Part shown: positions 6,328 to 62,198 of the stretch, piece after piece
Position numbering within the stretch: position 1 is the first letter of the stretch
Layout of the letters: every line of letters starts with the position of its first letter
Source of the DNA: Bdellovibrio bacteriovorus HD100
GTDB lineage: Bacteria > Bdellovibrionota > Bdellovibrionia > Bdellovibrionales > Bdellovibrionaceae
Direction: 5' to 3'
Length of the DNA: 64,000 nt
Assembly: GCF_000196175.1 (NCBI RefSeq)
Contig: NC_005363.1
Location: 620,001-684,000, forward strand
The notes under the pieces: model-generated
What the model saw: only the letters and a program-made list of their open reading frames with translations
Databases searched by the model: none
Told to the model about the DNA's origin: nothing
Translations under genes and position numbers: made by a program

Positions 6328-7881
6328 ATGCACGTCCCTGCTTTTGTGATGCTATTTCTGCTTGTCCTGTGTTCGCCGATTCTGGCGACGGCTGAATCCA
6401 ATTTGGAATTGCTGTACACAAAGCAGATTGCCTGGACAGCAGCAAACCTGGAAGACCCCAAGGTTGTCAGTGCTTTCCGCACTTCATTTCAGGATCTGGT
6501 CGCTGATAAATCCAAAATCGCCCAGCTACAGACATCCGAGGGCAAAAAGATTCTGCAACAGGGACAAAGCCTGCTGTCAGTCATTCAGCTGAAAGAGAAC
6601 CTGCAAAAGTGTCTGCTGTCCCACGCGGCCGCCAAGGGTGTTTCCGAGGCCTTGGCCAAGGCTTTGGATTCCCAAGTCTTAAATGGCGCTGTGTGTGCCG
6701 AGGTTGTGGCAGAAGAAAAGAAGATGCAGGCCTTTGGCAAAGACATGGAAAAGGCATTCAAAGAAGATGCTCGTAATAAGATCCTGAATACGGCAAAAAA
6801 GCAGCTGAATGTCACTCGAGCCTACTGGAAAGAAGCCGCCAAACAAGACGCCCTGGATATCGCGGTGGAGCTGACGGATCGCGAACGTGAAATGAAGGTC
6901 AAGCCTCCGCAATCCGGAACTGAACTCCTGCTTTATACCAAAGCCATTCGCGAACGAAGAAACAAAAACGTGATCGTTCAAAACGATGTGAAGAAAGCCT
7001 TCGCCGAAGTTCAGACCGAGCTAAAAAATCACGAGGACTATTTAAACGAAGCGGCCAAGGGCAGTGTTGACGAGACTTTGCAAAGTCTGCTGGTAACGAA
7101 CCCAGCGGCCAGTGCGCAGTTCCTGATGGAAAATCCGGGGGCTTCAGATCTGATCTGTAAGATCCTGCAGGGTTACGACAAGAAAGCCCAGAAAAACGAA
7201 ATCCTGGATAAAGCCATGTTCTGGGGTGGACTTGTTGTTGGCGGTGTTTTGCTGGCGACAGGTATTGGAGCCGGGGTCGGCGCGATGGTTCTTTCCGGAA
7301 CTGCCGCCGCGGGAACCTTGACCACAGTTGCGGCCGGGGCTGCCTTGGCGGGCACTATCGCTGCGGGTGGGGAAACAGTCTATGCCTCTTCAAAAGCCCA
7401 TGAATCCTTTATCGAGGCCCGAAATCTGAGGGCCTCGGCATTTGCTGAAGGGTCTTCCAAAGAATCCTTCAGCAAGGCAGACGCGGCAAAAGATCAGGCT
7501 TATTCTGATCTGGCAGAGGCGGGCTTTTCTGCTGCTTCCATCATCCCATTTGGGGCGGGTTTGAAGGTTATGAAAAATGCCGCTCAGGCTTCGCGCCTGG
7601 GATCTTACGCGAAAGTGGCCAAAGAAGGTGCCAAGGTCGAAACGGACGCGGTGAAGTCCATGGCGACGTCTTTAAAAGAAATCTCTTCCGACAAAGATGT
7701 TTTAAAGGTTCTGGAAACCAGCCAGAAGCAGGTGAATTCCGAAGAGATGGGGATGTTCCTGGGGTATTTGTCTGATTTGCCTAAAGATCAGCGCAAGGAA
7801 GTTCTGGCGCTATTAAAGAAGAAACCGGAAAAAGCTGCGGATGCCATTCGCGAATCTTCCAAATCTGGGGTGTGCAAATGA
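6328..7881 (+). CDS. Exported helical protein with a glycine-rich membrane segment, 517 aa
   Basis: An N-terminal signal peptide (MHVPAFVMLFLLVLCSPILATA) leads a largely alpha-helical, Lys/Glu/Ala-rich chain. Around residues 295-345 there is a long hydrophobic stretch full of Gly and Ala with GxxxG spacing (GGLVVGGVLLATGIGAG and following), likely a membrane hairpin. The C-terminus ends SGVCK. No known family is recognised. No Shine-Dalgarno is present; a FliA-like box lies 6 nt upstream instead. The stop overlaps the ATG of the exported J-domain gene (ATGA), so the two are translationally coupled and probably act together in the periplasm. Confidence 0.8.
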   Translation: MHVPAFVMLFLLVLCSPILATAESNLELLYTKQIAWTAANLEDPKVVSAFRTSFQDLVADKSKIAQLQTSEGKKILQQGQSLLSVIQLKENLQKCLLSHAAAKGVSEALAKALDSQVLNGAVCAEVVAEEKKMQAFGKDMEKAFKEDARNKILNTAKKQLNVTRAYWKEAAKQDALDIAVELTDREREMKVKPPQSGTELLLYTKAIRERRNKNVIVQNDVKKAFAEVQTELKNHEDYLNEAAKGSVDETLQSLLVTNPAASAQFLMENPGASDLICKILQGYDKKAQKNEILDKAMFWGGLVVGGVLLATGIGAGVGAMVLSGTAAAGTLTTVAAGAALAGTIAAGGETVYASSKAHESFIEARNLRASAFAEGSSKESFSKADAAKDQAYSDLAEAGFSAASIIPFGAGLKVMKNAAQASRLGSYAKVAKEGAKVETDAVKSMATSLKEISSDKDVLKVLETSQKQVNSEEMGMFLGYLSDLPKDQRKEVLALLKKKPEKAADAIRESSKSGVCK

Positions 7882-8660
7882 AGAATCTGATTCTGTTGGT
7901 ATTGCTGCCCTTGGTTTTGCCAATTGTAACCTTCGCCCAAACAGCGGATGAAGTCCGTCGCATCATGAATTCGCAAAGCAGCCATTACGATATTCTGAAT
8001 GTCAGTAAAAACGCTTCTGTGGACGAGATCCGCACGGCCTATCGTCGCTTGATGAAAACCTACCACCCGGATCGCTATCAAAACGACCCGCAAAAGCTGC
8101 GAGCCGCCACTGAAGTGATGAAAAAGCTGAACGTGTCCCGCGACACCCTGATGGACCCGATGGCCCGTCAAAGATACGACGCCACGGTGAAGTCAGCACC
8201 CAAAACGACTGCCAAGCCGGCATCGGCGGCGCAGCCTTCAGCAAAACCAGAATCAGTGAATCCAAAACCGGAACCAAAAAAGTGGTCAGGGCCGGATTTC
8301 GAAGCTGAAGCCAAAGCCAAGGCCGAAGCCACAGCAAAAGCCGAAGCTGCCGCCAAGGCAGAGGCGGCTGCGAAAGCGAAAGCCGACGCTGCGGCGAAAG
8401 CCAGTGCCAAAACTGCCGAGCCACCAAAGCAAGAAACTAGGTTCTCAGCCAAGGAGGCTCCAAAGGCAGCTACCGAATCAAAGGTTTCCAGTAGCAGGAC
8501 AGAATCTTCGAAGCCTGCGACAGTCGATACAGCGAAAGACGCCGCCGTGCGATCCGAACAGCCGATGAACCACCGAACCAAGCAGGCGGTGAAGTTCTAT
8601 GAAGACACCGCCAAGTGTGGTGCGGGTTTCTATAAGTCCTTCGTGGATATGATGCTGTAG
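7878..8660 (+). CDS. Exported J-domain (DnaJ-like) protein, 260 aa
   Basis: The ATG at 7878 overlaps the upstream TGA and starts a signal peptide (MKNLILLVLLPLVLPIVTFA). Residues 36-90 form a J-domain: HYDILNVSKNASVDEI, the diagnostic HPD at 63-65, and a helix ending ARQRYD. A long Ala/Lys/Glu low-complexity stretch of AEAxAKA repeats follows at about 140-180, resembling TolA linkers, and then a short C-terminal segment with one Cys. J-domains normally stimulate cytoplasmic Hsp70, so an exported one is unexpected. A GTG two codons earlier (7872) is an alternative start. Confidence 0.85.
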   Translation: MKNLILLVLLPLVLPIVTFAQTADEVRRIMNSQSSHYDILNVSKNASVDEIRTAYRRLMKTYHPDRYQNDPQKLRAATEVMKKLNVSRDTLMDPMARQRYDATVKSAPKTTAKPASAAQPSAKPESVNPKPEPKKWSGPDFEAEAKAKAEATAKAEAAAKAEAAAKAKADAAAKASAKTAEPPKQETRFSAKEAPKAATESKVSSSRTESSKPATVDTAKDAAVRSEQPMNHRTKQAVKFYEDTAKCGAGFYKSFVDMML

Positions 8661-8730: not shown

Positions 8731-9156
8731 ATGAGATCTCGAAGACGACGCCTTAGCCTCATTCGATTTATCTGGTTTGTCGCAAGCCTTCCGGTCAAAT
8801 TGATCTTTCTGCCGTTATCGTGGCTTCTGTCTTCAAAAAACCGAGATGGTTATGTTCTTAGAAAATCAACCTATGGAAGACCTCGGTACGAGCATCGCGT
8901 GGTCGCTGAAAGAATCCTAGGGCGACGATTGAAGCCGTGGGAAGTCGTCCATCACATCAACGGCCGTCGCAGTGACAACAGGCCTTCAAACTTGTGTGTT
9001 ATGTCGCGAAACGATCACGATCGATATCATCGGTGGTACGACCGAATCCGCGCAAACTATGGCCGATATCCGAAAAAGGAAACTCAGCTGGTCAAACTCA
9101 AAGACCGATTCAACGGAATACTGCTGGGTGAGTCTGTAAATAGAAAAGCAGGATAA
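8731..9156 (+). CDS. HNH endonuclease-type protein with an N-terminal hydrophobic segment, 141 aa
   Basis: Residues 1-35 are a basic start followed by hydrophobic sequence (IRFIWFVASLPVKLIFLP), which looks like a membrane anchor or signal. Residues 40-100 contain an HNH core: DGYVLRKSTYGRPRYEHRVV, then WEVVHHINGRRSDNRPSNL and a late His-rich NDHDRYHRWY. This matches the HNH_3-like fold found in free-standing and phage-encoded nucleases. A nuclease held at the membrane is odd. There is no adjacent methylase or toxin partner. A FliA-like promoter lies directly upstream. Confidence 0.75.
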   Translation: MRSRRRRLSLIRFIWFVASLPVKLIFLPLSWLLSSKNRDGYVLRKSTYGRPRYEHRVVAERILGRRLKPWEVVHHINGRRSDNRPSNLCVMSRNDHDRYHRWYDRIRANYGRYPKKETQLVKLKDRFNGILLGESVNRKAG

Positions 9157-10648: not shown

Positions 10649-11446
10649 ATGAATATATTTGATTTCAAGTCTTATAAGACGTTCTTAAGAGCCTATTGCG
10701 ACTCTGAAAGGGGTGCTCTGACCCGGTTGTCAGAGGCCGCCAATACCCAAAAGTCTTATTTGTCTGCCTGCCTGAATGGAAAGGGTCAGCTGAGCCTGGA
10801 TCAGGCCTTCGGAGTTGCTGAGTATCTGAATATGTCTGACTATGAGCAAGACTATTTCTATTTGCTGATTGATAAAGAAAAGGCAGTCACTCCGGCGCTT
10901 CGTCGCCGCCTTGAATCCAAGGCCAAGGACATGAGCCGCGAGGCTTTCAGGCTTAAGAATCAGCAGAAGGACTCTGTGATCGTTACGGAGCAGGATTCAA
11001 ACATCGGCTTCTATTATGCCACCTGGCTTGCGACGGCCATCCATACCCTGACGTCGGTGCCGCAGTTTCAAAGTATAGCGAGCCTTGAAAAGCGGCTGAA
11101 TCTAAATCAAGCCAGTGTTGCCACGATTATCGGCTATCTTGAGAAAATGGAACTTATCAAAAAAAGTGGTGATAAATATCGTTGGAACTCATCGAACATT
11201 CATCTGGAAGACAGCAGTGTCTGGATCAGCAGTCATCATACGAACTGGCGTGCGCGTGCCATGGACAATGTTCAGAAGAATGACCGGGAAGCGACTCACT
11301 ATAGTTCTATTCAGTCCTTCTCTGAAGAGGACTTTGAAAAGTTGAAGAAAAAGATCGCCTACTTTATCAGTGATTTTAACAAAGTCGCTGATCCGTCAGA
11401 GCCCGAAGACGCTTATTGCTTTAATATCGATCTTTTCCGGGTTTAA
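10649..11446 (+). CDS. TIGR02147-family regulator with helix-turn-helix, 265 aa
   Basis: The N-terminus (MNIFDFKSYKTFLRAYCDSE) is typical of TIGR02147 proteins. An XRE-like helix-turn-helix follows (ALTRLSEAANTQKSYLSACL, then LSLDQAFGVAEYLNM at about 24-60). The middle holds a second winged-helix-like region (LNLNQASVATIIGYLEKMELI near 150-170) and the usual C-terminal alpha/beta domain. The family is frequent in Bdellovibrio and Fibrobacter, and most members are uncharacterised. It lies upstream of an exported protein gene (11525) with 78 bp between them that carry a palindrome and a hairpin. A homologous regulator and partner occur at 61196. Confidence 0.85.
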   Translation: MNIFDFKSYKTFLRAYCDSERGALTRLSEAANTQKSYLSACLNGKGQLSLDQAFGVAEYLNMSDYEQDYFYLLIDKEKAVTPALRRRLESKAKDMSREAFRLKNQQKDSVIVTEQDSNIGFYYATWLATAIHTLTSVPQFQSIASLEKRLNLNQASVATIIGYLEKMELIKKSGDKYRWNSSNIHLEDSSVWISSHHTNWRARAMDNVQKNDREATHYSSIQSFSEEDFEKLKKKIAYFISDFNKVADPSEPEDAYCFNIDLFRV

Positions 11447-11452
11447 GCGGCT

Positions 11453-11467
11453 GTCTCATTTTGAGAC
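11453..11467. promoter_or_regulatory. Palindrome GTCTCA-TTT-TGAGAC
   Basis: The perfect arms extend to TGTCTCA/TGAGACA, with a 3-bp spacer. The palindrome begins 6 bp after the stop of the TIGR02147 gene and is centred at 11460, exactly 65 bp before the ATG at 11525. It has the same core and distance as the copy at 6256-6270. No T-tract follows, arguing against a terminator. Confidence 0.6.
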
Positions 11468-11480
11468 ATGGCCGTGGTAT

Positions 11481-11518
11481 GTCCTTTGCTTTCTTAAAAA
11501 CTAAAGAATGCAAAGGAC
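11481..11518 (+). promoter_or_regulatory. Hairpin that buries the Shine-Dalgarno of the 11525 gene
   Basis: GTCCTTTGC at 11481-11489 pairs perfectly with GCAAAGGAC at 11510-11518. After one T/T mismatch a further five pairs form (TTCTT with AAGAA), leaving an 8-base loop. The only Shine-Dalgarno for the ATG at 11525 is the AAAGGA inside the right arm. Folding of the mRNA would therefore block translation, suggesting an RNA switch, a thermometer or a protein-controlled leader. Confidence 0.65.
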
Positions 11519-11524
11519 ACTTCA

Positions 11525-12508
11525 ATGATCTGCACGAAATTTTGCGAAAAAATTTTGATCACCTGTGTGACGCTTTTTGCGTTGAATGCCTTTGCATTGG
11601 ATGCTGGTGCCGAAAAGTTAAAGCTGCCTCAGCTGCCGCAGATCAAGGCGCCTGAAGCCGTTCGTATTGAAGTTAAGCCCGTGGCTCGACCGGAAGGATC
11701 TTTGATCCTGGACAATGCCCTGGGTAAAAATCTTAAGGACTTTCAGACTTTTTTGAAAACTCAGGGGCCTCGTACTGGAGGCGGTGGAAATTCCTGTGCT
11801 CTTTCCATTCACCAGAACACAGAGAAGCTTGTCAGTTTGCTTTCTGAGATGCCCACGCTGTTGAGCGAGGGGCAAAGAGCTTTCTTGCTGCACAAGATAT
11901 CCGTGGCTAAGTTTTACCTAAGTGAAGATCTGACTCTGGATGGGCAGACAAAGGACGCCATTAACTATCCGAACACCAATGAGATTTATTTATCCAATAA
12001 GCTATGCGGGCTGGACCTGCTGGATGTGCAGAGCCGTGCGATGGCTATCCTTCTGCATGAATATCTGGGGCTTGCTAACATTGATGATCGTCGGTACCAG
12101 ATATCCGGTGCCTTCCTGCAAAACTATTCAACCTTCAATGCCCGTGGATATACCTTCACCGCTGATAATTCATATAAAGCACATACCGGACAATGTGTTC
12201 AGTCTGTTCTTCAGATGCAGCAAATCGGAAACAATTTAATTATTTCAACTTCGTCGAAACCTGGCGCGAGGATCATCCCATTAACGCGCCAACATGTTGA
12301 AGAGTTCCAGGCCTTGGGTGAACGAATTTGGGGAGCTGAAAAGACGGTCACCGTAGCCGACAGGGAAATGGGTGTGGACTATGTGTTTTCCAGCGAAAGT
12401 TGCGGCACCGTAAGTTGTGAATACTTAAGAATTAAAAAGGGCGATGTAACCATAAAGACTATTAAGAATGCCACCAATGGGCTGTCGACTATTGATTGCA
12501 AACGCTAG
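11525..12508 (+). CDS. Exported protein with LTLDG/LHE core, partner of TIGR02147 regulator, 327 aa
   Basis: The N-terminus (MICTKFCEKILITCVTLFALNAFALDAGA) is an export signal with extra cysteines. A Gly-rich TGGGGNSCA lies near residue 84. The central SEDLTLDGQTKDAINYP and AILLHEYLGLANIDDRRYQISG (about 135-200) resemble positions in the protein at 60354 (LTLDGREVAAVN, LVLHELLPIVGIFDEDY). The HE pair hints at a metal site but there is no full HExxH. The last 120 residues are unrelated to that protein and contain four Cys. Its Shine-Dalgarno is in a hairpin. Function is unknown; a periplasmic or surface role controlled by the upstream regulator is inferred. Confidence 0.82.
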   Translation: MICTKFCEKILITCVTLFALNAFALDAGAEKLKLPQLPQIKAPEAVRIEVKPVARPEGSLILDNALGKNLKDFQTFLKTQGPRTGGGGNSCALSIHQNTEKLVSLLSEMPTLLSEGQRAFLLHKISVAKFYLSEDLTLDGQTKDAINYPNTNEIYLSNKLCGLDLLDVQSRAMAILLHEYLGLANIDDRRYQISGAFLQNYSTFNARGYTFTADNSYKAHTGQCVQSVLQMQQIGNNLIISTSSKPGARIIPLTRQHVEEFQALGERIWGAEKTVTVADREMGVDYVFSSESCGTVSCEYLRIKKGDVTIKTIKNATNGLSTIDCKR

Positions 12509-14774: not shown

Positions 14775-14877
14775 TGTTCGGCGAGTTTTTGACGCGCTCC
14801 GAATAGCTATATTAAATGTCTGTAAGACTGTGAACAAAATATTGATTATCAGAGGACCTGCACATAATTGTGTCCTC

Positions 14878-15354
14878 ATGCAGGATGTAAATAAAAACTC
14901 AGATTTTAGACAATTTCTTGAAGATGAATTGGCTCGTCGTAGCCAAAACTATCCCCGTTACTCTTTGCGTGCGTTCGCCCGTCACCTGGAAGTGGACTCG
15001 TCTTTCTTGTCCAAAATCCTCAACGGCAAACGTACCGTGACGATGAGAACGATTCGTATGTTCGGGGAGCGTTTGAACCTGAATTCGGAAGAGCTTCAGC
15101 GTTTTGGTGAAATCAGCCGAGAGAAAAAAATGAAGCGCAAACTGGAGCGTCTATTGGAAAAGATGCCTAGTGAAGAGCGCGAGCATTCCACAATCACTAT
15201 CAATGTGGATGAGGCCCGTTTGGACGAGGCGAAAGAGAAAATCAAAGGTTTCCGTCGTGAACTGGCTCAGTTCCTTGATAATGGCGTGGTTCAGGGCAAG
15301 ACTTACCAGATTTCTGTCTCTTTGATTCCTGTAGCCAGCTACGCAGCTGAATAA
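14878..15354 (+). CDS. Short TIGR02147-type regulator lacking the central domain, 158 aa
   Basis: Residues 1-80 match the N-terminus of the regulator at 61196 (YSLRAFARHLEVDSSFLSKI against FSLRSFARLLKTDPSSLSKV), an XRE-like helix-turn-helix. The C-terminal half (MPSEEREHSTITINVDEARL) aligns with the C-terminal domain of the same protein (VPMEKRDNSTLTVAIHTDDI). About 90-100 central residues, including the winged-helix-like region, are missing. I use the ATG at 14878; a GTG at 14830 would add 16 residues unlike the family. It stands alone and ends at the terminator at 15383. Confidence 0.78.
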   Translation: MQDVNKNSDFRQFLEDELARRSQNYPRYSLRAFARHLEVDSSFLSKILNGKRTVTMRTIRMFGERLNLNSEELQRFGEISREKKMKRKLERLLEKMPSEEREHSTITINVDEARLDEAKEKIKGFRRELAQFLDNGVVQGKTYQISVSLIPVASYAAE

Positions 15355-60327: not shown

Positions 60328-60355
60328 AAGAAAGGGCGCTGTGCGCCCTTTCTTT
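60328..60355. terminator. Bidirectional intrinsic terminator
   Basis: AAGAAAGGGCGC pairs with GCGCCCTTTCTT. The hairpin begins one base after the slyD stop and its far end overlaps the stop codon of the convergent gene at 60354. Confidence 0.88.
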
Positions 60356-61199
60356 ATTCGCAGCCCATGGCTGGGCCCAATTCGGTCTGGTAGGGAGGGC
60401 CCATTTTCCTGACCTGCTCGCAGCTGTTGTTGACCTTGTGAGCGCAGACTTTGAAGGTGGGCACACCTTGAGAACGCAGCGTTTTCAGGATTTCAACAGC
60501 GGCAGGGACACTTCGAATGTGACTTCTTAAGAACCAGTTGGTCAGACTGAGCGAACCAATGCACAGATCCATGCTGATCTTCCAGTCGTTCATCTTTTCA
60601 ATGAAGGCCGGACACTCATGATCCAAAGACTTTAGGATCAGGGCGTCGATTTCAGGTCTGGCGATCATTCTTTTGAAGCGTGATTCTGAAACTGACCCGA
60701 TCATCTCGCGATCACAGCGGACAATAGCTGTCTCCATGGCTGAAACCGTAATGGGATTTTCTGGTTGAAGCAGCTGCCAAAGGGCGGTGGAGTTTCTATA
60801 GTCTTCGTCAAAGATTCCCACGATTGGCAGCAGTTCGTGCAGGACCAGCAAAGTCCTTTGTTTTTCGTTCAACTTTTTCCAGGCCGTTCGCGACATGACG
60901 ATCTTTGGAGGAATGGCCAGAGGCTGGTTGACGGCGGCGACTTCGCGCCCATCCAGTGTCAGGGACTCGACGGAAGAAAACACCACTGACAGTCTTGCCT
61001 GATCCAGAACTTCACGTTTGATCGCAGCACCGTTTTCCAACGGCAGATTCAAAGGCAGCCGTTCCAGAGCCGAATCCAGGGCAATCAAAAACTCTGCAAC
61101 AAAAGGGTCACCGCCGTTGGTTTCCTGACCGTCGTTCAGCGGCGAGGCCCACACCGGGGAAAGCATTCCGATCAGCAGGAAAGACAAAATCAGTTTCAT
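60354..61199 (-). CDS. Exported protein with LTLDG/LHE core, partner of TIGR02147 regulator, 281 aa
   Basis: The signal peptide is MKLILSFLLIGMLSPVWA. A TNGGDP near 28 is followed by VESLTLDGREVAAVNQP and LLVLHELLPIVGIFDEDYRNS at about 80-155, which resemble the core of the exported protein at 11525. The last 120 residues carry Cys pairs (CDREM, HECPA, DLCIG, KVCAHKV) and end AMGCE. Function is unknown. The ATG overlaps the regulator stop (ATGA), so the two are one unit. Confidence 0.82.
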   Translation of the reverse strand: MKLILSFLLIGMLSPVWASPLNDGQETNGGDPFVAEFLIALDSALERLPLNLPLENGAAIKREVLDQARLSVVFSSVESLTLDGREVAAVNQPLAIPPKIVMSRTAWKKLNEKQRTLLVLHELLPIVGIFDEDYRNSTALWQLLQPENPITVSAMETAIVRCDREMIGSVSESRFKRMIARPEIDALILKSLDHECPAFIEKMNDWKISMDLCIGSLSLTNWFLRSHIRSVPAAVEILKTLRSQGVPTFKVCAHKVNNSCEQVRKMGPPYQTELGPAMGCE

Positions 61200-61930
61200 A
61201 GAATCTCCTCTTTAACAGGATACAGGGCGCTGCTGAAGTTATAGACGGCATTCAGTTGATGTCTTCTTTTTTCAGCCAGGCGGTGAATGCGGTGGCGGGC
61301 TTCGCGGATGATGTCTTTAATGGCGGGAATATCGTCGGTATGAATGGCGACGGTCAGAGTGCTGTTGTCGCGTTTTTCCATGGGCACTTCTTCCAGGGCT
61401 TTTTGTGCCATCTCCAGATATTTTTTCTGCAGGCCCCGGCGCAGTTCGGTGGTGTAGGGAATGGTGACAGTGGTCAGATTTGAAGGCAGGTAGTTTCCGT
61501 TATCAGTGCTTCTGTGCAGAATTTTATGACTTTCCAGATACTCGATGGTCTTTTGGATCTGTTCTTCTGTCATGCCGAAAAGATCCGCCAGCGCCGACAT
61601 GTTGCGGGTGGCATTCGGCAACTTCAGCGTTTCCAGCAGAATCGGGTGAACCCAGCTGTAAGTGGATTCAAAGAACTCTGAATTCAGCGGGTTGAACGAA
61701 TTGGCGCCATTCACGACGCCCTTAAGCTGTTCAGTTTCTTCCGGCGTGAGCTTCATGCAGTCCACCCACTTTTCGACGGTTTCATCTGAAGGGATGCGCA
61801 GACCGTTTAACACTTTGGATAAAGAGCTGGGGTCCGTCTTTAGCAAGCGGGCAAAGGATCTCAGAGAGAATTTGGGATTCTTCTCCTGACGTTTTTTTAA
61901 CTGTAACTGCATAAACTGTTGGACTGTCAT
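61196..61930 (-). CDS. TIGR02147-family regulator, 244 aa
   Basis: FSLRSFARLLKTDPSSLSKVLNGLRIPSDE at about 21-50 is an XRE-like helix-turn-helix. A second winged-helix-like region (MSALADLFGMTEEQIQKTIEYLESHKIL) and the C-terminal domain with STLTVAIHTDDIPAIKD follow, as in TIGR02147 proteins. It overlaps the downstream exported gene by four bases, tighter than at the 10649 locus. It may sense a metabolite or envelope signal, but no ligand is known. Confidence 0.84.
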   Translation of the reverse strand: MTVQQFMQLQLKKRQEKNPKFSLRSFARLLKTDPSSLSKVLNGLRIPSDETVEKWVDCMKLTPEETEQLKGVVNGANSFNPLNSEFFESTYSWVHPILLETLKLPNATRNMSALADLFGMTEEQIQKTIEYLESHKILHRSTDNGNYLPSNLTTVTIPYTTELRRGLQKKYLEMAQKALEEVPMEKRDNSTLTVAIHTDDIPAIKDIIREARHRIHRLAEKRRHQLNAVYNFSSALYPVKEEIL

Positions 61931-62198
61931 GGAGCAATTAATTCATGACTATGATTCGCTTTAAAACAAAAAAGTGAAATGAAGCGTGTAATTGTGGCTT
62001 TAACGCGAGCCACATTGCGCGTTGCGATGCGCTTGGGGAGCGGATTTGAGGGCTGGACGAAAGGCTTCTCAGTTCGTTCTCAGCTCCGTTTTAAATGCAT
62101 TTCTACAACATAATGTGGCGACGAAATAGAGCAACACTGAGAAAAACCCGAACCTTTCTATAGATTTGAATGCAGTACGTTTTACGACGGAGTCAGGG
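61931..62198. other. Divergent intergenic region with a small hairpin
   Basis: This 268-bp gap separates the regulator gene (minus) from the lipoprotein gene (plus). It contains GTGGCT-TTAACGCG-AGCCAC at 61994-62013, a perfect 6-bp inverted repeat with no T-tract, followed by GCGC repeats. I see no gene. Both promoters must lie here. Confidence 0.5.

Follow-up and report, generated by a model that had tools for sequence, protein, structure and literature searches.

Paired genes for TIGR02147/DUF4423 regulators and exported zincin-like proteins recur in Bdellovibrio bacteriovorus and other Bdellovibrionota

The window analysed here is a stretch of 64,000 nucleotides from Bdellovibrio bacteriovorus HD100 (NC_005363.1, positions 620,001 to 684,000), in which two gene pairs (modules 1 and 2) each combine a transcriptional regulator of the TIGR02147/DUF4423 family with an exported protein. 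Pairs of this kind turned out to be repeated in the genome and to recur across Bdellovibrionota. We consider it probable that each module is a self-regulated operon that expresses one exported zincin-like effector, mostly without a canonical metal site. In such an operon, a cytoplasmic protein with a helix-turn-helix (HTH) and a DUF4423 domain would recognise a private operator in the promoter from which it is itself expressed and thereby set the expression of the exported protein that is translated directly after it. The exported protein would carry a zincin-like domain, which in two of the subfamilies described below (I and II) would have kept the first His and the Glu of the active site and lost the second zinc His, so that these proteins may act as non-catalytic binding or receptor domains, or may use an altered site. 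The C-terminal parts are variable and could assign a separate role to each copy, either in the envelope or outside the cell.

The pairs of the window and their copies in the genome

In module 1, the regulator (10649-11446, + strand; PF14394 144.9 bits, TIGR02147 60.4 bits) is followed after an intergenic gap of 78 bp by the exported protein (11525-12508, + strand), which contains a signal peptide, TGGGG, LTLDG followed by DAINYP, and HEYLGLANIDD (12056-12088, + strand). Module 2 is encoded on the - strand, and its regulator (61196-61930; PF14394 163.2 bits, TIGR02147 84.2 bits, HTH_3 E 3e-6) overlaps by 4 bp with the gene for an exported protein (60354-61199) comprising a signal peptide, TNGGD, LTLDG followed by AAVNQP, and HELLPIVGIFDE, within which HELLPIVGIFD is encoded at 60807-60839 (- strand). 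In the overlap, the stop of the regulator gene and the start of the exported gene are joined in an ATGA (61196-61199, - strand), an arrangement suited to translational coupling. Both regulators score over the curated cut-offs (30 bits for PF14394 and 50 bits for TIGR02147) and have the same architecture, with the HTH at the N-terminus and DUF4423 at the C-terminus. The two pairs, as well as the motifs shared by their exported proteins and the order of these motifs, were thus found as the original prediction had described them. The neighbouring genes on both sides of each pair lie on the opposite strand, so that each module forms a lone two-gene unit and is probably its own transcription unit.

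The exported proteins of the two modules match each other with E = 1e-5 in a single BLASTP comparison, and a profile of subfamily II, to which both belong, recovered them from all open reading frames of the window (E 1.1e-43 for module 1 and 1.1e-48 for module 2) together with no others. As the profile alignment contains both proteins, this search mainly shows that there is no third member in the window. No Pfam or NCBIfam family scored over its cut-off for the exported protein of either module, and in the module 2 protein the helix that contains the HE motif matched a phage metallopeptidase below threshold. The window additionally encodes a short TIGR02147 protein of 174 amino acids (14830-15354, + strand) that has an HTH but, of DUF4423, no more than the final third; there is no exported partner behind it, and an equivalent was matched in genome G055, too.

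The original prediction had counted two unlinked copies, both of which are real, but this was an undercount, because the genome holds about ten. The complete sequence of 3,782,950 bp contains about 19 DUF4423 genes, and inspection of the gene that follows each of these revealed ten exported proteins of the family, which have a GNGG-like motif shortly past the signal peptide as well as a buried HE motif. Each of the ten is linked to a DUF4423 gene, nine directly behind it and one after a lipoprotein gene. Three are members of subfamily II and seven of its sister subfamily I; the third subfamily II copy, besides the two of the window, is located at G000:C1:2688025 and again has an ATGA overlap. 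Genome-wide profile search detected no member of the family without a linked DUF4423 gene: the profile of the seven commonest proteins returned only those seven and, weakly, two of the window's subfamily, while searches of the genome with single proteins added nothing past the three known members of the latter.

Linkage, export and joint inheritance across Bdellovibrionota

Subfamily I was present in 52 of 94 sampled genomes and 39 of 64 genera, and single-protein searches identified significant relatives of the module 2 and module 1 exported proteins in 18 and 13 of the 94 genomes, respectively. Genes of subfamily I were located immediately downstream of a regulator on the same strand in 44 of 60 cases, with one gene between in a further five, and the corresponding number for subfamily II was 17 of 20. 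An independent scan that used only two protein motifs and covered one genome per species of GTDB release 220 yielded 75 loci, 65 of which are Bdellovibrionota by their NCBI name. The exported gene was directly behind the regulator in 52 of these loci and separated from it by one gene in 18, where the intervening gene encodes a lipoprotein (a class of ~680 bp) or another copy of the family; in two loci the exported gene itself lay just upstream of a regulator, two had no regulator in reach and one was cut off by a contig end. By our own estimate, less than one of the 75 loci would be expected behind a regulator by chance, given that about 19 of some 3,600 genes encode regulators. This overwhelming enrichment beside TIGR02147 genes, which had been proposed as a check, supports the claim that the pairing represents a functional unit. 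A phage or mobile origin was considered and rejected, as two scans of viral contigs gave no relative.

The junction between the two genes is most commonly the ATGA overlap, with a distance of exactly -4 bp in 58 of 140 pairs. Viewed from the regulator, 28 of 59 DUF4423 genes in eight genomes were immediately followed by a recognised family member, and by our count 12 more were followed within -8 to +1 bp by another protein with a signal peptide; four calls of other exported proteins (L275, L299, L306 and L320) that resemble spurious open reading frames or unrelated genes were left out of these counts. Lipoproteins form a second partner class of DUF4423 regulators (L309, L312 and G000:C1:3596177); they carry TSTGNPxV or TTIGNPxI shortly past the lipobox cysteine, and their genes overlap the regulator gene likewise.

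A simple heuristic assigned a signal peptide to 132 of 150 exported proteins versus none of 140 regulators. Many of the 18 exported proteins with a negative result appear to bear a signal peptide when inspected by eye, and forms with a lipobox occur. The exported partners are about 200 amino acids or longer and vary in their C-terminal parts: L177 is a fusion with an outer-membrane beta-barrel that exceeds Pfam's cut-off, and L032 ends with MORN-like repeats that score below cut-off. In L195 (2959-6696, + strand), several exported family members are arranged in tandem within one operon, including proteins of subfamilies I and II with near-identical signal peptides and GNGG regions, which suggests that N-termini have been exchanged between the subfamilies.

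Regulator and exported protein are inherited jointly. The trees of the two partners agree beyond what is obtained by shuffling within genomes (0 of 1000 shuffles reached the observed value for 107 pairs), and the correlation within the B. bacteriovorus HD100 genome alone was r = 0.70 (p = 0.002).

One exported superfamily with an altered HExxH helix

The existence of a common core, the second check that had been proposed, was supported by alignment of subfamilies I and II with an hhalign probability of 97.7 % (E 1.8e-12), and the two were also aligned by direct BLAST. A third subfamily (III) was found by profile search in 28 of the 94 genomes; its members are exported as well and contain the intact zinc motif HELGHxxGxxxH. 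Among 25 subfamily III loci, 18 lay immediately behind a regulator, three had one gene between, three were divergent within 160 bp and one had no regulator. Subfamilies II and III align with E 2.5e-7 over 116 columns that begin at GNGG, include HE and reach the acidic residues behind it. When the signal peptides were removed, the three comparisons between subfamilies scored 50.0, 35.8 and 34.9, and no reversed or shuffled control exceeded 17.3; for subfamilies II and III, the score of 34.9 compares with a shuffled maximum of 16.0. Exported HExxH proteins are encoded behind DUF4423 regulators also at L281, L283, L284, L311 and L342 (HERLH, HELAH, HEALH, HEHLH and HEAAH, respectively); the profiles of subfamilies I and II do not join them, and they are perhaps further subfamilies or independent recruitments of zincins.

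The alignment of subfamilies II and III places HELGHQVGEENH opposite stretches of the HEYLGLANIDDR and HELLPIVGIFDE type, with the first His and the Glu retained, the second His substituted and an acidic pair near the position of the third ligand. In both window proteins, the motif reads as an HExxHxxGxxD-like active-site helix, in which Gly (module 1) or Pro (module 2) takes the place of the second zinc His. The forms of the motif are HExxGxxxxDD or HExxPxxGxxD in subfamily II of the window, HExxY in subfamily I and HExxHxxG in subfamily III. The second zinc His, at position +4, is missing in all 145 scored proteins of subfamilies I and II, the two window proteins included, and Tyr, the usual residue in subfamily I, occupies its place in 108 of these 145. 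What had been predicted as a conserved acidic/His core is better identified as the active-site helix of a zincin-like domain without the second zinc His. In a 70-sequence alignment of subfamily I, G24, N25, G27, C32, D40, D103, C115, H155 and E156 are invariant, and no His, Asp or Glu that could serve as third ligand is invariant after the HE helix.

The exported superfamily is missing from Pfam and NCBIfam, in which no family was clearly over its cut-off. The best curated match was Zincin_1 (E 0.00067, no cut-off clearly passed), and the weak Pfam matches at the HE helix are metallopeptidases; weak NCBIfam matches to LIC13305 lipoprotein and UBact were judged to be due to chance. No relative in the PDB was detected by sequence for either the exported core or the regulator. 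An AlphaFold 2 model of subfamily I (206 amino acids, 70 sequences) was predicted with confidence (predicted local distance difference test, pLDDT, 90.9; predicted template modelling score 0.86). Foldseek gave no match under 0.001 for this model, but the nine best rows, starting at E 0.036, were all minigluzincins, and a second list of structural neighbours consisted mostly of zincins with Z up to 4.2. These neighbours are suggestive of a zincin fold for subfamily I rather than proof of it, and the homology to HExxHxxG proteins, as seen in the profile alignments, is the stronger leg of this assignment compared with the structure search.

Regulation, alternative explanations and significance

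The original prediction that the regulator controls the exported protein receives indirect support from the operon structure and from candidate operators. Palindromes are enriched upstream of the regulators (31 % versus 12 % of control upstreams with a score of 8 or more), although not significantly at the highest scores. A single operator common to all modules was rejected, as the two-gene modules carry varied palindromes. The clearest candidate, TGTTTCA-N5-TGAAACA-N-TGTTTCA, lies upstream of the regulator in a three-gene form of the module, in which the regulator is followed by a lipoprotein of about 225 amino acids (Ser-Cys-Ala-Ser/Thr lipobox) and then by a short exported protein of the LHEIIYEHF type (L034, L119, L122, L128, L130, L212, L231, L232, L234, L240, L249, L255 and L262, with the palindrome in most). 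Its core GTTTCA..TGAAAC was present in 9 of 16 upstream regions of this class versus 5 of 686 control upstreams, an enrichment whose size is optimistic because the motif was found and counted in the same data. The best form occurs as a single exact copy in the B. bacteriovorus HD100 genome, 48 bp before its regulator; at the three-gene-class regulator G000:C1:1113911-1114684, the candidate operator is GTTTCAAAGTCTGAAACACTGTTT. That this motif recurs in Bdellovibrio, Halobacteriovorax and other Bacteriovoracaceae can hardly be attributed to chance. In the window, the candidate operator TGTGGCT-N8-AGCCACA (61993-62014), 5' of the module 2 regulator, is perfectly kept upstream of the ortholog in a second species (genome G055), where the flanks are conserved, too, which makes it weak evidence when taken alone.

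Several points weigh against a self-regulated operon for a zincin-like effector. The best scores of both structure searches are weak, and therefore the zincin fold rests on the consistency of the matches and on the homology to HExxHxxG proteins. For the window protein itself, the AlphaFold 2 model, made from a mixed alignment, was poor (pLDDT 53), as confident prediction was confined to the signal peptide and to the strand and helix that surround HE, and it was not used for the fold search. Among the 59 sampled DUF4423 genes, eight had no same-strand gene close downstream, so the link between the regulator family and this partner is not exclusive. Co-inheritance is evidence of a pair that moves together and not proof of interaction. 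Finally, a clear operator was found only in the three-gene class; module 1 has no clear palindrome, and that of module 2 lies within generally conserved sequence.

If the exported core were not a zincin at all and the likeness of its HE helix convergent, the weak fold-search scores and the lack of a Pfam or NCBIfam family over cut-off would be accounted for. We regard this as improbable in view of the profile homology that links subfamily II to proteins which occupy the same genomic slot and have an intact HExxHxxG, and of the repeated naming of metallopeptidases by several methods. A more serious alternative is that proteins of the HExxY and HExxG types are enzymatically active, through a modified metal site or a mechanism without metal, and thus constitute a new class of hydrolases. 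Besides N25, D40, D103, H155 and E156, the residues E43, Y159, S170 and R174 (L232 numbering) are conserved, and the strict invariance of H, E, G24, N25, G27, D40, D103 and two cysteines would be unusual for a dead enzyme; yet subfamily I offers no invariant third ligand past the HE helix, and we consider activity possible but less likely than not. That the pair merely spread by linked duplication of neutral genes in one lineage, without functional coupling, is very hard to believe: the pair does duplicate as a unit, but the pairing of subfamily I extends over 39 of the 64 genera and persists through divergence to 20-30 % identity, it involves all three subfamilies, the overlap is kept and copies separated from a regulator are rare. 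The adjacency counts largely refute this explanation, and the pattern is more simply understood as the result of selection on the pairing.

The original prediction had also allowed for a regulator that is informed by the secreted protein. The module might accordingly work as a feedback sensor, in which the co-translated regulator would bind the unexported precursor or a returned fragment of the exported protein, and transcription would thereby be set by export status or by a signal from the envelope or the prey. The frequent ATGA overlap (58 of 140 pairs), the strict gene order, the private regulator for each exported protein and the correlated trees would all suit such a circuit, and circuits combining an HTH protein with a peptidase or with a secreted peptide are established elsewhere, for example ImmR/ImmA and the RRNPP systems. 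The exported cores are, however, folded domains of 150-200 amino acids and not propeptides, the regulator family is also coupled to unrelated lipoproteins, which argues against one conserved interface, and co-expression alone accounts for the coupling. We therefore regard feedback as rather unlikely and give the self-regulated operon the preference.

Known systems resemble the modules in part. By cut-off, the regulators are members of TIGR02147 (Fsuc_second) and DUF4423 (PF14394), family models that carry no function. The minigluzincins (selecase, jannalysin and abylysin), the top but weakly scoring Foldseek neighbours of the subfamily I model, are small soluble zincin cores; they carry HExxH, unlike subfamilies I and II, and to our knowledge are not partners of regulators. 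In metzincin-type zincins (HExxHxxGxxH/D; archaemetzincins, astacins), the motif is similar to HELGHxxGxxxH of subfamily III, and the HExx.xx(G)xxD spacing is preserved in subfamily II, but the second His is missing from subfamilies I and II and no curated family is clearly over its cut-off. ImmR/ImmA and IrrE/DdrO likewise have the gene of an HTH regulator beside a zincin-type gene, and IrrE appears low in the list of structural neighbours. ImmA/IrrE-type peptidases are cytoplasmic, contain HExxH and cut the repressor, whereas the partner described here carries a signal peptide, which takes it out of the compartment in which the regulator resides, and the window type has no HExxH. In RRNPP systems (PlcR/PapR, Rgg/SHP), an HTH regulator is also followed by a secreted product; these are short propeptides read by a tetratricopeptide repeat (TPR) regulator, while the window regulators have no TPR match and the products here are about 200 amino acids or more. 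Co-transcription of a regulator with its target is an old general idea. The unit of regulator and exported partner, which the original prediction had held to be undescribed, was not described in the literature searched, with few subscription journals among it: TIGR02147 was not named and DUF4423 appeared only as a table entry.

Elsewhere in the window, an apparently exported J-domain protein is encoded at 7872-8660 (+ strand), with a signal peptide, a J-domain-like YHPDRY stretch and an Ala/Lys-rich tail, and an isolated small HNH-endonuclease-like protein (VVHHINGRRSDNRPSNL) at 8731-9156 (+ strand).

The modules provide a functional context for TIGR02147/DUF4423, a regulator family of no known function, and give a name to a large exported superfamily without Pfam or NCBIfam model that has a member next to roughly every second DUF4423 gene in the sample from eight genomes. 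Since relatives with intact HExxH and without the second His occupy the same genomic slot, the way in which pseudo-proteases evolve can be tested directly, and the palindrome offers an immediate target for a DNA-binding assay. Bd3700, a DUF4423 protein, is listed as raised during growth in prey in a proteome study (PMC12546842), which places the regulator family in the predatory cycle. The ten private pairs in one predator genome suggest a combinatorial deployment of envelope or prey-directed proteins. A bolder extension, to which we attach little likelihood, is that the modules are phylum-wide predator sensing circuits, in which an exported pseudo-protease or its precursor would report the state of envelope or prey to its own co-translated DUF4423 regulator. 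Proven feedback would make the module categorically new and, if such circuits exist, they would represent a new kind of export-coupled transcriptional control, built from an exported protease by loss of its zinc site.
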